Source of the DNA: a virus
Direction: 5' to 3' (one strand)
IMG/VR virus record: IMGVR_UViG_3300042540_000549
Span: 1-35,051 of that record
Length of the DNA stretch: 35,051 nt
The translations under genes and the position numbers were made by a program. How positions within the stretch are numbered: position 1 is the first letter of the stretch; every line of letters starts with the position of its first letter. Below, piece after piece: positions 2,455-33,600 of this stretch. The notes under the pieces were generated by a model. It ran no database searches, had not been told where the DNA came from, and saw only the letters and a list, made by a program, of their open reading frames with translations.

Positions 2455-2484
2455 TGCTGTTTCCTTTCTCTGTTTGTTGTTGTA

Positions 2485-2649
2485 TTACCTGCCACGCCAA
2501 GCGTGCCAGACCTTCACCCCGAGGTGAAAGAACGGGTACACCGACACGCCCACACCGAGCATCACCAAAGGCGACCCCGACACCAACCCGACAGTCAGCA
2601 TCACAACCCAAGTGTGCCCCAACGCATACCCCACGACAGGCGGTCTCAT
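2485..2649 (-). CDS. Small membrane protein
   Basis: A 54-residue protein. The upstream GTG at 2700 would also be open, but ATG 2649 forms an ATGA overlap with the stop of the 41-residue ORF upstream, matching the coupling style of this operon. Residues about 12-45 are two hydrophobic stretches (HTWVVMLTVGLVSGSPLVM and LGVGVSVYPFFHLGV), giving one or two membrane segments with a basic C-terminus. The function is unknown; together with the next gene it forms a pair of coupled membrane microproteins. Confidence 0.55.
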   Translation of the reverse strand: MRPPVVGYALGHTWVVMLTVGLVSGSPLVMLGVGVSVYPFFHLGVKVWHAWRGR

Positions 2650-3472: not shown

Positions 3473-3844
3473 CTACGCCCATTCATGGCGGATAACATAA
3501 CCCGCCCGCTCAGTGTCGTGCTTGTACAACTCATAAGACAAGTTGTAGACAAGGTGAAACCCCATGTCCATACCGCAACCATTCACGCGAATCACGCGCC
3601 AACCGTTTCGGTCTTTGACCTTCTCGCCCATAGCCTCGGCTGCCGTGTAGGTGATGTCCACGAGGTCGCCGTCCTTGTCCACGAGTTTTAGAGAAATGTC
3701 TCTACTCATGCCAGACTGCGAGACATGGCGTAGAAGTGTGTGGATTACGGGCTTTTCTACCCCTTCCAACATCTCCCGCAGTCGTCGCCGTGCTAGTTCT
3801 CGGTCTATTGCTGCTTGCGTTTTCTTGGTAATTGCTCGTGGCAT
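3473..3844 (-). CDS. Conserved phage hypothetical protein (123 residues)
   Basis: Start ATG 3844 is preceded by GAGAAAGGGG, the strongest ribosome binding site of the leftward block, and lies 19 bases after the GACCGAATAAC box of leader element A. The N-terminal third is basic and helical (KKTQAAIDRELARRRLREML). The rest is beta-rich and contains LLRHVSQSGMSRDISL and NGCGMDMGFHLVYNL. Proteins with this ...SQSGMSR... pattern recur in actinophages and plasmids as uncharacterised small proteins (from memory). The nucleic-acid-binding look comes from the basic helix; the function is unknown. Confidence 0.7.
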   Translation of the reverse strand: MPRAITKKTQAAIDRELARRRLREMLEGVEKPVIHTLLRHVSQSGMSRDISLKLVDKDGDLVDITYTAAEAMGEKVKDRNGWRVIRVNGCGMDMGFHLVYNLSYELYKHDTERAGYVIRHEWA

Positions 3845-3863
3845 CTCTGCCCCTTTCTCTTTT

Positions 3864-3950
3864 GTTATTCGGTCACCAAGCACCACGCTTGGCGTTACCT
3901 TGTACCCTAGCGAGGTAGTGAGCCTCGGTCAAGCCTTCGCTTTCTAGGGT
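3864..3950 (-). promoter_or_regulatory. Structured leader element A (tRNA-like/promoter composite)
   Basis: On the leftward strand: closing stem ACCCTAG (3950-3944) with CTAGGGT (3910-3904); one base; arm AAGC-GAAG-GCTT (3942-3931); linker GAC; arm CGAGG-CTCACTA-CCTCG (3927-3911), which abuts the closing stem; ACAAGGTAACG; hairpin CCAAGC-GTGGT-GCTTGG (3892-3876); then TGACCGAATAAC (3875-3864). Overlaid on this is a promoter match, TTGACC (3932-3927), 17 bases, TAGGGT (3909-3904). It begins 7 bases after the upstream stop. It is one of four copies (see elements B-D) whose arms differ in sequence but mostly keep pairing. Confidence 0.7.
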
Positions 3951-3957
3951 TGGGGGA

Positions 3958-4164
3958 TTACTCGCCGAGGCGATAGCGAAGTTGTGTTACTGCGTCCTCA
4001 ATACTGTCTAACAGTACCGCCGATACTGCGACGGGCGTACCCCAAGTAGCACCCCGCATAGTAGAAGCCCACCCCATAATCTCGGACAGTAGTTCTTCGT
4101 CTTTCATTGAGCGCATGGCTATCCTTTGTCTATCTCTGCGCCATGCTTGGCTATCGGTAATCAT
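3958..4164 (-). CDS. Hypothetical protein of 68 residues
   Basis: Starts at ATG 4164 (MITDSQAWRRDRQRIAM) after GAGAAAGCGAGACACA, 19 bases after the GACCGAATAAC box of leader element B. An upstream in-frame start would translate the leader box itself and is rejected. The N-terminus is basic; the middle is acidic and helical (MKDEELLSEIMGWAS); the C-terminus is helical (LLDSIEDAVTQLRYRL). No family is recognised. Confidence 0.6.
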   Translation of the reverse strand: MITDSQAWRRDRQRIAMRSMKDEELLSEIMGWASTMRGATWGTPVAVSAVLLDSIEDAVTQLRYRLGE

Positions 4165-4183
4165 TGTGTCTCGCTTTCTCTGT

Positions 4184-4271
4184 GTTATTCGGTCAAGGTT
4201 CACCACGAACCTTGCTACCTTGTACCCTAGTCGCCTATCGCTGGCGAGTCAAGTCTTACACTTGCTAGGGT
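4184..4271 (-). promoter_or_regulatory. Structured leader element B (tRNA-like/promoter composite)
   Basis: Leftward strand: closing stem ACCCTAG (4271-4265) with CTAGGGT (4230-4224); one base; arm AAGT-GTAAG-ACTT (4263-4251); linker GAC; arm TCGCC-AGCGATA-GGCGA (4247-4231); ACAAGGTAGC; hairpin AAGGTTC-GTGGT-GAACCTT (4213-4195); then GACCGAATAAC (4194-4184). A promoter match overlays it: TTGACT-N17-TAGGGT. Compared with element A, both inner arms and the last hairpin differ in sequence while pairing is fully kept, and loop GTGGT and the downstream box are identical. Confidence 0.7.
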
Positions 4272-4279
4272 CGTTTGCC

Positions 4280-4420
4280 TTACTTGCCTGCCCGTGTCCT
4301 TACGATACGGTAGCGTGTACCCTGCCACGATAATGCTGCCATGACATAGTCTAGGGCTGCTTGTTTGGTGGGGAATTCGTAGGGTAGGAACCCTGCTGGC
4401 GTTTCTATTTTGTAAATCAT
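4280..4420 (-). CDS. 46-residue hypothetical protein
   Basis: A short ORF from ATG 4420 to TAA 4280 encoding MIYKIETPAGFLPYEFPTKQ followed by 26 more residues, helical in the middle (AALDYVMAALSW) and basic at the end. It has a GAGAAAGGCAAGAG ribosome-binding-like stretch and lies 14 bases after the GACCGAATAA box of leader element C, exactly where its neighbours start. It fills an otherwise empty interval between elements B and C. No family is recognised. Confidence 0.6.
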   Translation of the reverse strand: MIYKIETPAGFLPYEFPTKQAALDYVMAALSWQGTRYRIVRTRAGK

Positions 4421-4434
4421 CTCTTGCCTTTCTC

Positions 4435-4522
4435 TTATTCGGTCAAGCCTCACCACGAGCCTTGTAACCTTGTGACGCTATCGGGACTCGCACCCGATGA
4501 CGAGCCTACGCTCGTTAGCGTC
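4435..4522 (-). promoter_or_regulatory. Structured leader element C
   Basis: Leftward strand: closing stem GACGCTA (4522-4516) with TAGCGTC (4480-4474); one base; arm CGAGC-GTAG-GCTCG (4514-4501); 3-base linker; arm TCGGG-TGCGAGT-CCCGA (4497-4481); ACAAGGTTAC; hairpin AAGGCTC-GTGGT-GAGGCTT with one G-G mismatch (4463-4445); GACCGAATAA (4444-4435). The closing stem is entirely different from A and B yet still 7 bp. The -35 region has degenerated to TCGTCA with TAGCGT 17 bases later, so promoter activity is doubtful while the fold persists. The 7-base loop TGCGAGT is close to a tRNA T-loop. Confidence 0.65.
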
Positions 4523-4529
4523 CGTATTC

Positions 4530-4724
4530 TCAGTGTGTTAGTTCGTGACCGATAAGAGAGAAAATGTTACCCTCTCGCACCCGCTCTGTGAGGTCATCGT
4601 AACACTCGTCGCATAGGTGCTGTACCCATTCATCTATGCGCCATTGTGATTTTTCGGCTGCCTCTGTGTAGATAGCCTTCATCGTAGGCTCTGCCATTTG
4701 GCATTTATCGCACCATTTAGTCAC
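4530..4724 (-). CDS. Zinc-ribbon-like protein, GTG start
   Basis: A 64-residue protein starting at GTG 4724, with GAGAAAGGGTACACA upstream and leader element D before that. C5-D-K-C8 and C38-D-E-C41 give two CxxC knuckles about 30 residues apart; between them is a helical segment (YTEAAEKSQWRIDEWVQHL). This is a clear zinc-binding fold. Its resemblance to the 3067-3267 gene is limited to the two knuckles. Likely nucleic-acid or host-protein binding; the function is unassigned. Confidence 0.65.
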   Translation of the reverse strand: MTKWCDKCQMAEPTMKAIYTEAAEKSQWRIDEWVQHLCDECYDDLTERVREGNIFSLIGHELTH

Positions 4725-4743
4725 TGTGTACCCTTTCTCGGTA

Positions 4744-4828
4744 GTTATTCGGTCATGCCTCGGCGAGGCTTGTACCTTGCGGGCGGGTGAGGTAGTGAAC
4801 CTCGCAACCCCTACGGGTCACCCGTCCC
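4744..4828 (-). promoter_or_regulatory. Structured leader element D (divergent copy)
   Basis: Leftward strand: closing stem with one bulge (4828-4821 with 4787-4781); arm ACCC-GTAG-GGGT (4818-4807); 3-base linker; arm GAGG-TTCACTA-CCTC (4803-4789); GCAAGGTAC; hairpin GCCTC-GCC-GAGGC (4769-4757), whose loop is shortened from GTGGT; then GACCGAATAAC (4754-4744). No -10 sequence remains (TAGGGT is replaced by GC-rich stem), so this copy argues that the fold, not the promoter, is what is kept. Confidence 0.6.
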
Positions 4829-4834
4829 TATGAC

Positions 4835-5035
4835 CTACGCCCTTTCGGACTCAATCCCCGTACACTCAACCCAACCGCAAGCGTTACGGAAAGTGTGACG
4901 GTTGAACCTTTCGTTGTCCTCTCTCAGGGCGCTTGCTAACCCGTTTACTATTGCCATCCAATCGTACGGGTTAGCCCCGTCGCGTAGTTCTTTCTTCATC
5001 GCCTTTGCGATGAGTTCGTAATCCTTGCGGGTCAT
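4835..5035 (-). CDS. First gene of the leftward operon, hypothetical
   Basis: A 66-residue protein, mostly helical (MTRKDYELIAKAMKKELRDG..., IVNGLASALREDNERF), ending with a short Cys-containing segment. ATG 5035 has GAGAAAGTGAGAGA directly upstream. It is the first gene after the strong promoter at 5113-5085 and a leader hairpin, so it should be made early and in quantity. Short helical proteins with this kind of N-terminus (YELIAKAMKK) are common uncharacterised early genes of actinophages. No function can be assigned. Confidence 0.65.
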   Translation of the reverse strand: MTRKDYELIAKAMKKELRDGANPYDWMAIVNGLASALREDNERFNRHTFRNACGWVECTGIESERA

Positions 5036-5055
5036 TCTCTCTCACTTTCTCTAGT

Positions 5056-5075
5056 GGGTTCGTACCACCGAACCC
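5056..5075 (-). promoter_or_regulatory. 5'-end hairpin of the leftward transcript
   Basis: Leftward GGGTTCG (5075-5069), loop GTGGTA, CGAACCC (5062-5056): a perfect 7-bp hairpin starting a few bases from the predicted transcript start (about 5078). The GTGGT loop matches the hairpins of elements A-C, so this is a fifth, truncated member of the leader family. It may protect the 5' end or bind a protein. Confidence 0.6.
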
Positions 5076-5084
5076 GATAGCACC

Positions 5085-5113
5085 ACCATAGCGAACCCGT
5101 CGCCACTTGTCAA
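5085..5113 (-). promoter_or_regulatory. Strong sigma70-type promoter for the leftward operon
   Basis: Leftward TTGACA (5113-5108), 17-base spacer, TATGGT (5090-5085). The -35 is a perfect consensus match and the spacing is ideal. The predicted start near 5078 gives a leader of about 43 bases before the ATG at 5035. Confidence 0.8.
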
Positions 5114-5123
5114 GCCATTTCAG

Positions 5124-5139
5124 TGTGACTCTAGTCACA
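5124..5139. promoter_or_regulatory. Perfect dyad upstream of the leftward promoter (operator candidate)
   Basis: TGTGACT-CT-AGTCACA, 7-base arms around a 2-base centre, about 10 bases upstream of the -35. A GGTTCGCTAT sequence occurs on the leftward strand both just upstream of it and again between -35 and -10. The position suits a repressor or activator site; the protein is unknown. Confidence 0.5.
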
Positions 5140-5233
5140 ATAGCGAACCGTAACACAACCGCAACAAACCAGCCAGAATGTAAGGTGCGCCTAACAACCT
5201 GTCAGGGTCACCTAATAAATTACCACCAAGTAA

Positions 5234-5315
5234 GTTACCGACGGGTAACATAGGCGGACTTGTCCGCTTGCTACAGCAAGCACCTTGCTAGCAACCGTTA
5301 GCGAACACTTGTTCG
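5234..5315. repeat. Tandem perfect inverted repeats
   Basis: Successive dyads: GTTACC-GACG-GGTAAC (5234-5249), GCGGAC-TT-GTCCGC (5254-5267), CTTGCT-AC-AGCAAG (5267-5280), AGCAAG-CAC-CTTGCT (5275-5289), TTGCTAGCAA (5285-5294), CGAACA-CT-TGTTCG (5302-5315). The CTTGCT/AGCAAG units alternate, so they allow mutually exclusive pairings. Such density suggests a replication origin, a recombination site or a structured transcript. Confidence 0.7.
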
Positions 5316-5330
5316 GGGGTGGGGGTTGGG

Positions 5331-5395
5331 TGGTCATTCGGTCACGGTGAGTGGTCAAACGCTCAGTGTGGTTGAGTGGTCACGGTGCGTAGTCA
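5331..5395 (+). repeat. GGTCA direct repeats (iteron-like)
   Basis: TGGTCA at 5331, 5352 and 5377, GGTCA at 5340 and TAGTCA at 5390. GGTCACGGTG occurs twice (5340-5349, 5378-5387) and GAGTGGTCA twice (5349-5357, 5374-5382). Short spaced direct repeats next to inverted repeats and an AT-rich patch are typical of initiator- or regulator-binding arrays. Confidence 0.55.
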
Positions 5396-5499
5396 ATGGG
5401 TGGGGCTTGACGGGTAGTCTGCCGAGCCACCCCACCCTATGTGTATGTATAAGGGTTGGTCTGTGTGGTCATTTTTGTTGGTGGCGGGTTTGTGACCTA

Positions 5500-32754: not shown

Positions 32755-33001
32755 CATCATGTTCAAGGCCAACGCCACCGTCGCCAAGTTCCTCGACCTC
32801 GGACAGCGCCTGTTCTCCCTGTTCCTCGCCAACGCCCTCCCCGCCATCACAGGTGGCGCCGTCATCGGTGTGTCGGTAGCCAAGTCGGCGCTTCTGGCAG
32901 GATTTATGGCATGCGTACAAGTAATCCAAAAACTGGCCGCCGCGTCAACGGACGGCGAGTTGACCAAAGAAGAAATCCAAGAGGCGTTCGGCAAAAAGTA
33001 A
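32747..33001 (+). CDS. Membrane protein, probable actinophage holin
   Basis: An 84-residue protein with a GGGGTAAGG ribosome binding stretch. The N-terminal half is amphipathic; LFSLFLANALPAITGGAVIG and SALLAGFMACVQVIQKL form two membrane segments; the end is acidic and helical (TDGELTKEEIQEAFGKK). I know nearly this pattern from holins of actinophages. Directly upstream of the M15 endolysin, this is the best holin candidate; it would permeabilise the membrane at a set time. Confidence 0.72.
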   Translation: MTDIMFKANATVAKFLDLGQRLFSLFLANALPAITGGAVIGVSVAKSALLAGFMACVQVIQKLAAASTDGELTKEEIQEAFGKK

Positions 33002-33600
33002 TGGCGAACCGTTACCCCGTCGTCCCAGTCACCCTCCCATCCGACCTCAAAGGAGTAACACCTGGACGTGTACCTGAAAACCTTATGCGACCGATTGAAG
33101 GCAAAGGCAAACTACATCGTCTTGCGGCTGACGCATACGAAGCAATGGACGCAGCAGCCAACACCGAAGGAATCGACCTCGCCCCGACCAGCCAAGCGGA
33201 CACGTACCGCTCCCTCGAAACCCAAGAGTACGGGTTCTTCCAAAGGTACACAGACAAGCCGAACAAGAAGCAAGCCAAAACCACGCCGCGCATCTACAAA
33301 GGCAAAGCCTGGTATCTGAAGTCCCCGAAACTGGCGCCGATGGCGGTGCCTGGTACCTCTCAGCACAACCTCGGCATTGCCATTGACATCGCCCACGCTT
33401 CAGGCAAACGCTTGGAGTGGCTGCTCAAACACGCACAGTCATTCGGCTTCTCGTGGGAAGTTCAGAGCGAGCCATGGCATCTGCGTTATGTGACTGGCGA
33501 CAATGTGCCAGAACGGGTCAAGGAGTGGAAAGCGAAGAAGTCGCTCACCCCAGACGAACCGAAGCCGTCGGCTTGCCCGACGTGCAACAGGGCCTTCTGA
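33001..33600 (+). CDS. M15-family peptidoglycan peptidase (endolysin)
   Basis: A 199-residue protein starting at ATG 33001, directly after the holin stop. The zinc site is visible: SQHNLGIAIDIAH gives His122 and Asp129, and EPWHLRY gives His160 with Glu157 as the catalytic base, the arrangement of VanY/M15 D-Ala-D-Ala carboxypeptidases and endopeptidases. The N-terminal 60 residues (PSDLKGVTPGRVPENLM) are typical of phage M15 lysins. A C-terminal CPTCNRAF tail may bind metal. It cuts peptide cross-links of the cell wall. There is no signal peptide, so export needs the holin. Confidence 0.88.
   Translation: MANRYPVVPVTLPSDLKGVTPGRVPENLMRPIEGKGKLHRLAADAYEAMDAAANTEGIDLAPTSQADTYRSLETQEYGFFQRYTDKPNKKQAKTTPRIYKGKAWYLKSPKLAPMAVPGTSQHNLGIAIDIAHASGKRLEWLLKHAQSFGFSWEVQSEPWHLRYVTGDNVPERVKEWKAKKSLTPDEPKPSACPTCNRAF

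Follow-up and report, generated by a model that had tools for sequence, protein, structure and literature searches.

The 35,051-base virus record analyzed here (the window) carries on its minus strand four copies, A to D, of an element that, judged from its sequence, has the form of a tRNA acceptor/T-arm minihelix: its loop measures 7 nt, its 3' end is R-C, and it has no anticodon arm. The copies are members of a widespread family that occupies intergenic positions in actinobacterial phages, where close relatives have hammerhead ribozymes. We propose, with a probability of roughly 0.6, that these elements are RNase P processing sites that punctuate a polycistronic phage mRNA. In a wider reading, for which we see slightly better than even odds, actinobacterial phages would run a form of tRNA punctuation, with up to about a dozen anticodon-less mimics per genome at which host RNase P would cut the polycistronic mRNA wherever, with few exceptions, two small genes are separated; these mimics would be evolutionarily interchangeable with hammerheads and perhaps with long double-stranded hairpins.

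Elements A to D occupy the intergenic gaps of a single operon of five small genes, before the genes starting at 3844, 4164, 4420 and 4724, where the initial annotation had placed four structured leaders. The first gene of the operon (4835..5035, minus strand) encodes a 66-aa protein of phrog_19432, and similar genes in relatives have hammerheads or a tRNA-like element in front of them. A promoter-like site (TTGACA-17-TATGGT, 5085..5113, minus strand), which is a consensus match only, lies upstream of the whole operon. No promoter-like sites were found at elements A to D, and a search there for a GC hairpin followed by a T run gave no terminator-like site, so the window scan offers no support for reading the elements as promoters or terminators. 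A fifth near-copy of the element tail, GACCGAATGA, is present at 5334-5343 (minus strand), 5' of the promoter-like site, with the rest of the element absent.

Element A (3865..3950, minus strand) precedes a gene (3473..3844, minus strand) for a 123-aa protein of phrog_12365, the homologues of which provided the slot for the comparison of hammerheads and tRNA-like elements described below. It comprises, all on the minus strand, an acceptor-like stem (3950-3944/3910-3904), a small arm with the loop GAAG (3942-3931), a T-arm-like hairpin with the loop CTCACTA (3927-3911), a linker ACAA (3903-3900), and a trailing hairpin (3899-3871) followed by the tail GAATAA. Element B (4185..4271, minus strand) has the same layout, with the T-like loop AGCGATA and the small-arm loop GTAAG, and precedes a gene for a 68-aa protein (3958..4164, minus strand). 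Element C (4435..4522, minus strand), with the closing stem GACGCTA/TAGCGTC and the T-like loop TGCGAGT, precedes a gene for a 46-aa protein (4280..4420, minus strand); no family was found for either of these two proteins. Element D (4745..4827, minus strand) has an 8-bp closing stem with one mismatch and a 4-bp arm with the loop TTCACTA, and precedes a gene for a cysteine-rich 64-aa protein (4530..4724, minus strand), for which a weak match to DUF7685 fell below the cut-off. The closing stem begins 7, 8, 7 and 7 nt past the upstream stop codon in A, B, C and D, respectively.

The layout described in the initial annotation was recovered as the minimum-free-energy fold of each window copy, with z-scores against dinucleotide shuffles of -3.3, -4.2, -3.2 and -2.9 for A to D; in D the predicted fold has one closing-stem mismatch and a shortened loop in the second arm. 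The closing stem and second arm form an uninterrupted 12-bp helix in all four copies, built as 7+5 bp in A, B and C and as 8+4 bp with one A-C mismatch in D. The sequence GACCGAATAA is exact in all four (at 3865, 4185, 4435 and 4745), and its ACC pairs with the GGT of CAAGGT to close the trailing hairpin, so that these conserved letters are partly helix. GACCGAATAA is not family-wide; the family as a whole shares its shape and, in sequence, only a few letters of loop and linker.

The proposal that this is a selected fold drew little from the four copies themselves, since A and B share their closing stem and covariation within the window is slight; it is strongly supported by relatives. A DNA pattern built from the conserved letters retrieved IMG/VR contigs L006, L014, L025, L026, L047, L055 and L082, then L089 and L091, and a homologue search with gene 3473-3844 added many more. 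Most of the 85 matches to the first pattern were chance matches in coding DNA that lacked the fold. A descriptor anchored in sequence only at the loop and linker found 35 distinct elements versus six in reversed sequence. When the 7-nt loop was left free, C was found at position 56 in 38 of 54 hits and a purine at position 57 in 46 of 54, and reversed sequence gave six hits; those of the 54 that lack C56 appear to be due to chance. Among 21 distinct rods of the window group, all 12 pairs of closing stem and second arm change on both sides, and 98.0% of cells are paired, versus 62.5% with partners shuffled and 34-44% with strands slid; the descriptor required pairing with at most one mismatch, which inflates the percentage paired and not the number of pairs changing on both sides, and the rods are related, so that the shuffle count is not a probability, while the slid control retains that relatedness and fails. 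Pair counts were made on gapless rods because MAFFT misaligned the two closing-stem types.

In the window group, the first pair is GC in 11 rods and AU in 10, A and B both beginning with A-U; position 58 is not conserved; and a G recurs at the end of the small-arm loop. C56 and R57 occur in 24/24 window-group elements, a set selected on both letters. Some copies (in L047, L111 and at Oaker 11914) have no small arm at all, which identifies the rod as the core of the element. A blastn search of the window copies against phages and plasmids gave no match, and the relatives among genome contigs are few and proteobacterial.

The initial annotation knew of no described phage leader of this shape. 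That statement did not hold: an acceptor stem of 7 bp and a T arm of 5 bp with a 7-nt loop, joined with no gap, is tRNA geometry, which makes the shape tRNA-like, and divergent relatives carry canonical T-loop and D-loop letters. These relatives, here termed sister elements, are found in near relatives of the window, within the same operons, and also in isolated Mycobacterium, Streptomyces and Gordonia phages. Their T-loop is of textbook form (TTCRANY), they have a GG like that of a D-loop, and the contact between D-loop and T-loop covaries. In the near relatives the loops read TTCGAGT, TTCAAGT or TGCGAGT, and an 11-nt insert containing CT[G/A]GCAG replaces the D and anticodon arms. Inserts with CTGG accompany loops with TTC, and those with CTAG accompany TGC, with no exception among distinct near-relative copies; as far as sequence can tell, this is the tRNA 18-55 contact with both partners changing in concert. 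AU, GC or CG pairs also link insert position 9 to loop position 60. Copies of the sister elements differ strongly in sequence, and still 11 of 12 pairs covary, including the loop-loop pair (AU 20, GC 5, CG 2), with 99.4% of cells paired versus 68.1% when shuffled.

The window copies are a divergent class relative to these elements. R1, a covariance model of the sister class, found no significant match in the window, its best hit being the T-arm part of element C (15 bits, E 0.29); the link between the two classes thus rests on architecture and on intermediates. Element C has a sister-class loop, TGCGAGT, which the L025 tRNA-like element also has; in L119 a canonical T loop occurs together with a window-type tail; and L055 holds both classes in one operon with the common tail CAAGGT...ACCGAATA. 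At minus-strand position 4113, L025 has a sister tRNA-like element before a homologue of window gene 2269-2454; relative to L025, the window at 2455-2500 (minus strand) keeps only the A-rich tail, and the element seems to have been lost there.

Isolated phages were searched by blastn with one sister element as the query. Matches were obtained in unannotated gaps of Mycobacterium phages Oaker, Damien, Konstantine, Papyrus, Send513, Predator and others, and in about 50 Streptomyces phages. A scan of segments of six isolates, which required T55, C56 and R57, returned 58 elements (55 on the operon strand) versus six in the reversed control, and an R-C end was present in 50 of the 55. In these 50 elements, a set chosen for R73-C74 and hence free of selection only at T54, A58, G1-C72 and GG, we observed C56, R57, A58 and C74 in 50/50, T54 in 49/50, a G-C first pair in 48/50, GG in the insert in 47/50, and A or G at N73. 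The rod is 11 bp long in 42 and 12 bp in eight. Whole-record counts with R1, the training set of which included some of the counted isolate sequences, were 7 for Oaker, 12 for Papyrus, 8 for Joe, 10 for Izzy, 6 for Predator and 7 for ObLaDi. In the six isolates an element occupies 44/52 gaps of 55-160 nt and 0/46 shorter gaps; gaps below about 50 nt are too short for an element, and the informative figure is 44/52. The elements lie about 45 nt upstream of start codons, and in both the isolates and the window group the rods often begin 6-9 nt past the upstream stop codon. At that distance a terminating ribosome would reach the rod, which suggests that termination and processing are coupled.

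In a comparison that the initial annotation had proposed, the window copies matched no Rfam family: the window gave nothing at gathering score, and positions 3700-5400 gave nothing at E values up to 5. Neither the yjdF riboswitch model nor the mascRNA-menRNA model matched in the window, and tRNA gene finders, including ARAGORN, and the Rfam tRNA model did not call the elements tRNAs. As a catalogued family, the window elements therefore appear new. In Izzy, Joe and Predator, weak hits of the Rfam models for mascRNA and tmRNA, both tRNA-like RNAs, fall exactly at three elements.

A first hint as to what else can occupy the slot came from a Hammerhead_II hit in L055. A core-based scan of 2.37 Mb, which gave no hit in reversed sequence, then recovered 24 distinct type II hammerheads, among them L014:2081-2122 and L055:11872-11926 (minus strand) and further copies in L089, L100, L106, L107, L122, L123, L135, L145, L151, L161, L169, L172, L176-L183 and others; the Rfam gathering score missed every one of these in the 19 loci scanned with it. 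They sit between co-directional genes of uncultured phages. The hammerhead core (CUGAUGA / GAAA / UH) is absent from the window. Of the 105 distinct regions upstream of 3473-3844 homologues, 17 carry a tRNA-like element, 17 a hammerhead and 24 a long hairpin (at least 16 pairs), and the other 47 have none of these. In the protein tree, a nine-member hammerhead clade, with one more member beside it, adjoins a clade with eight tRNA-like carriers, and the joint branch has 99% support, while many deeper forks are unresolved. The clearest exchange is between L014 and L055, whose copies of the gene share 91% DNA identity starting at the ribosome-binding site, with a hammerhead in front of the gene in L014 and a tRNA-like element in L055, the swap being exact at the ribosome-binding site. 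Since hammerheads cut RNA, the simplest function for both to share would be cutting between cistrons; the exchange suggests cleavage and does not prove it. The long hairpins, which are imperfect and stand in the upstream regions of L146-L149, L160, L171, L196, L207, L212, L216 and L235 among others, resemble RNase III sites and may be a third kind of interchangeable processing element in this slot. No hammerhead was seen in isolated phages that encode a distant homologue of the 3473-3844 protein (phages of Curtobacterium, Gordonia, Achromobacter, Caulobacter and Sphingobium), and a loose scan of them gave many scattered matches on both strands, none acceptable as an element.

The stacked acceptor/T rod, the elbow and the R-C end are the substrate parts that RNase P recognises. 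The sequences show the fold, its covariation, the tRNA-like letters, the position of the elements and their exchange with hammerheads; that RNase P is the agent, where exactly it cuts and what the phage gains are inferred. The acceptor-like and T-arm-like helices would stack into a rod of 11-12 bp, and the small arm or D-loop-like insert would dock on the 7-nt T-like loop to form a tRNA elbow. The cut by host RNase P would then fall on the rod's 5' edge, 7-8 nt past the upstream stop codon, giving predicted new 5' ends near 3950, 4271, 4522 and 4827 and splitting the polycistronic phage mRNA into single-gene messages, the 5' ends of which the tRNA-like fold and the hairpin behind it would protect. 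That the trailing hairpin protects or insulates the new 5' end is a guess. Known targets of RNase P include tRNA-like structures and mRNAs, phage RNAs among them (PMC11143913). Of its substrate features, both the window group and the isolates have purine 73, C74 and a rod close to 12 bp in length. The elements have no anticodon arm: their inserts measure 0-19 nt and hold at most one small arm. Several features speak against RNase P. The full RCCA that it favours is absent, C75 occurring in 1/50 isolate elements and the window group ending in ACAA, ACTA or GCAA (R-C-A/T-A); position -1 is mostly A (41/50 isolate elements) and not the common U; the window copies diverge, with position 58 variable, an A-U first pair in A and B and no significant match to the sister model; and the elements are not recognised as tRNAs by ARAGORN or by the Rfam tRNA model.

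The main rival is that a tRNA-like fold 5' of the ribosome-binding site raises translation of the downstream gene with no cutting, which we regard as unlikely, if still worth serious attention. Such an effect has been demonstrated for the yjdF riboswitch, in which the elbow GG is required, and for tRNAs grafted into mRNA leaders, which gave 2- to 6.3-fold more translation in vitro (PMC9142559), and the distance of the elements from start codons would suit such a role. However, enhancement leaves unexplained both the hammerheads in the same slot and the constancy of the distance (7-8 nt) from the upstream stop codon, and no yjdF match was obtained with Rfam. Another tRNA enzyme, with or without RNase P, might instead cut or bind the elements, as in mascRNA maturation: RNase Z cutting 3' of the rod, the CCA-adding enzyme, EF-Tu or a synthetase. 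The missing CC at 74-75 would permit RNase Z, and the weak mascRNA matches lean the same way; yet RNase Z would not require C74, which is near-universal (50/55 operon-strand hits before selection), and a synthetase would find no anticodon, so that we hold this group of enzymes to be improbable.

Several near-identical copies ahead of different genes in one operon could also be expected of an operator through which a phage or host protein regulates the translation of those genes. This is very improbable, as the closing stems vary freely with pairing kept and the same fold stands ahead of unrelated genes in unrelated phages. Occupation of the hammerhead slot and several conserved unpaired letters might instead point to a new self-cleaving ribozyme, but those letters are the ones of the tRNA elbow and 3' end, and elsewhere the family retains pairing only; we give this reading hardly any weight.

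Processing by RNase P would place the elements among kinds of RNA that are already known, the tRNA-mimicking RNase P substrates and mitochondrial tRNA punctuation. Mitochondrial transcripts are punctuated by tRNAs, and plant mitochondria have t-elements; in both, as in the phages, tRNA or tRNA-like structures in intercistronic gaps mark cut sites, those of the phages being predicted. Unlike mitochondrial punctuation, the phage elements are not functional tRNAs, having no anticodon arm, and their carrier is a DNA phage of bacteria. The tRNA acceptor/T-arm minihelix and tRNA-like RNase P substrates (the TYMV 3' end, phage M3 and C4 RNA, and T4 gene 32 mRNA; PMC11143913) share the 11-12 bp stacked rod, the 7-nt T-type loop and the R-C 3' end, whereas the present elements occur in many copies per genome between phage genes, are followed by a second hairpin, have an incomplete CCA and are cleaved by prediction only. 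The yjdF riboswitch (PMC9142559) is alike in its cis tRNA-like fold and D-loop/T-loop elbow upstream of a ribosome-binding site, but has a four-helix junction and a ligand, whereas the elements have no Rfam match. mascRNA/menRNA (RF01684) is likewise a small tRNA-like RNA with reduced arms, and its model scored 26.9 and 26.2 bits on Izzy and Joe elements, below the cut-off of 42.5; it is, in contrast to the phage elements, the 3' end of a eukaryotic lncRNA. The type II hammerhead (RF02276; PMC3088659) occupies the same intercistronic slots in related phages but has a different, self-cleaving fold, and the elements lack its core. As far as Rfam and the literature searched (including few subscription journals) show, no anticodon-less version has been described that is dedicated, repeated and placed between phage genes.

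The elements offer a concrete, testable reason for the regular gaps of about 90 nt between small genes of many actinobacteriophage genomes. If the proposal is true, RNase P would join T7-type RNase III sites and self-cleaving ribozymes in phage mRNA processing, and the exchange of hammerheads in the slot bears on the open question of the role of hammerheads in phages. Copies in laboratory phages of M. smegmatis and Streptomyces make direct testing possible. Elsewhere in the window, 33001-33600 encodes a predicted VanY-type D-alanyl-D-alanine carboxypeptidase (Pfam PF02557, 3.3e-15), probably the phage endolysin.
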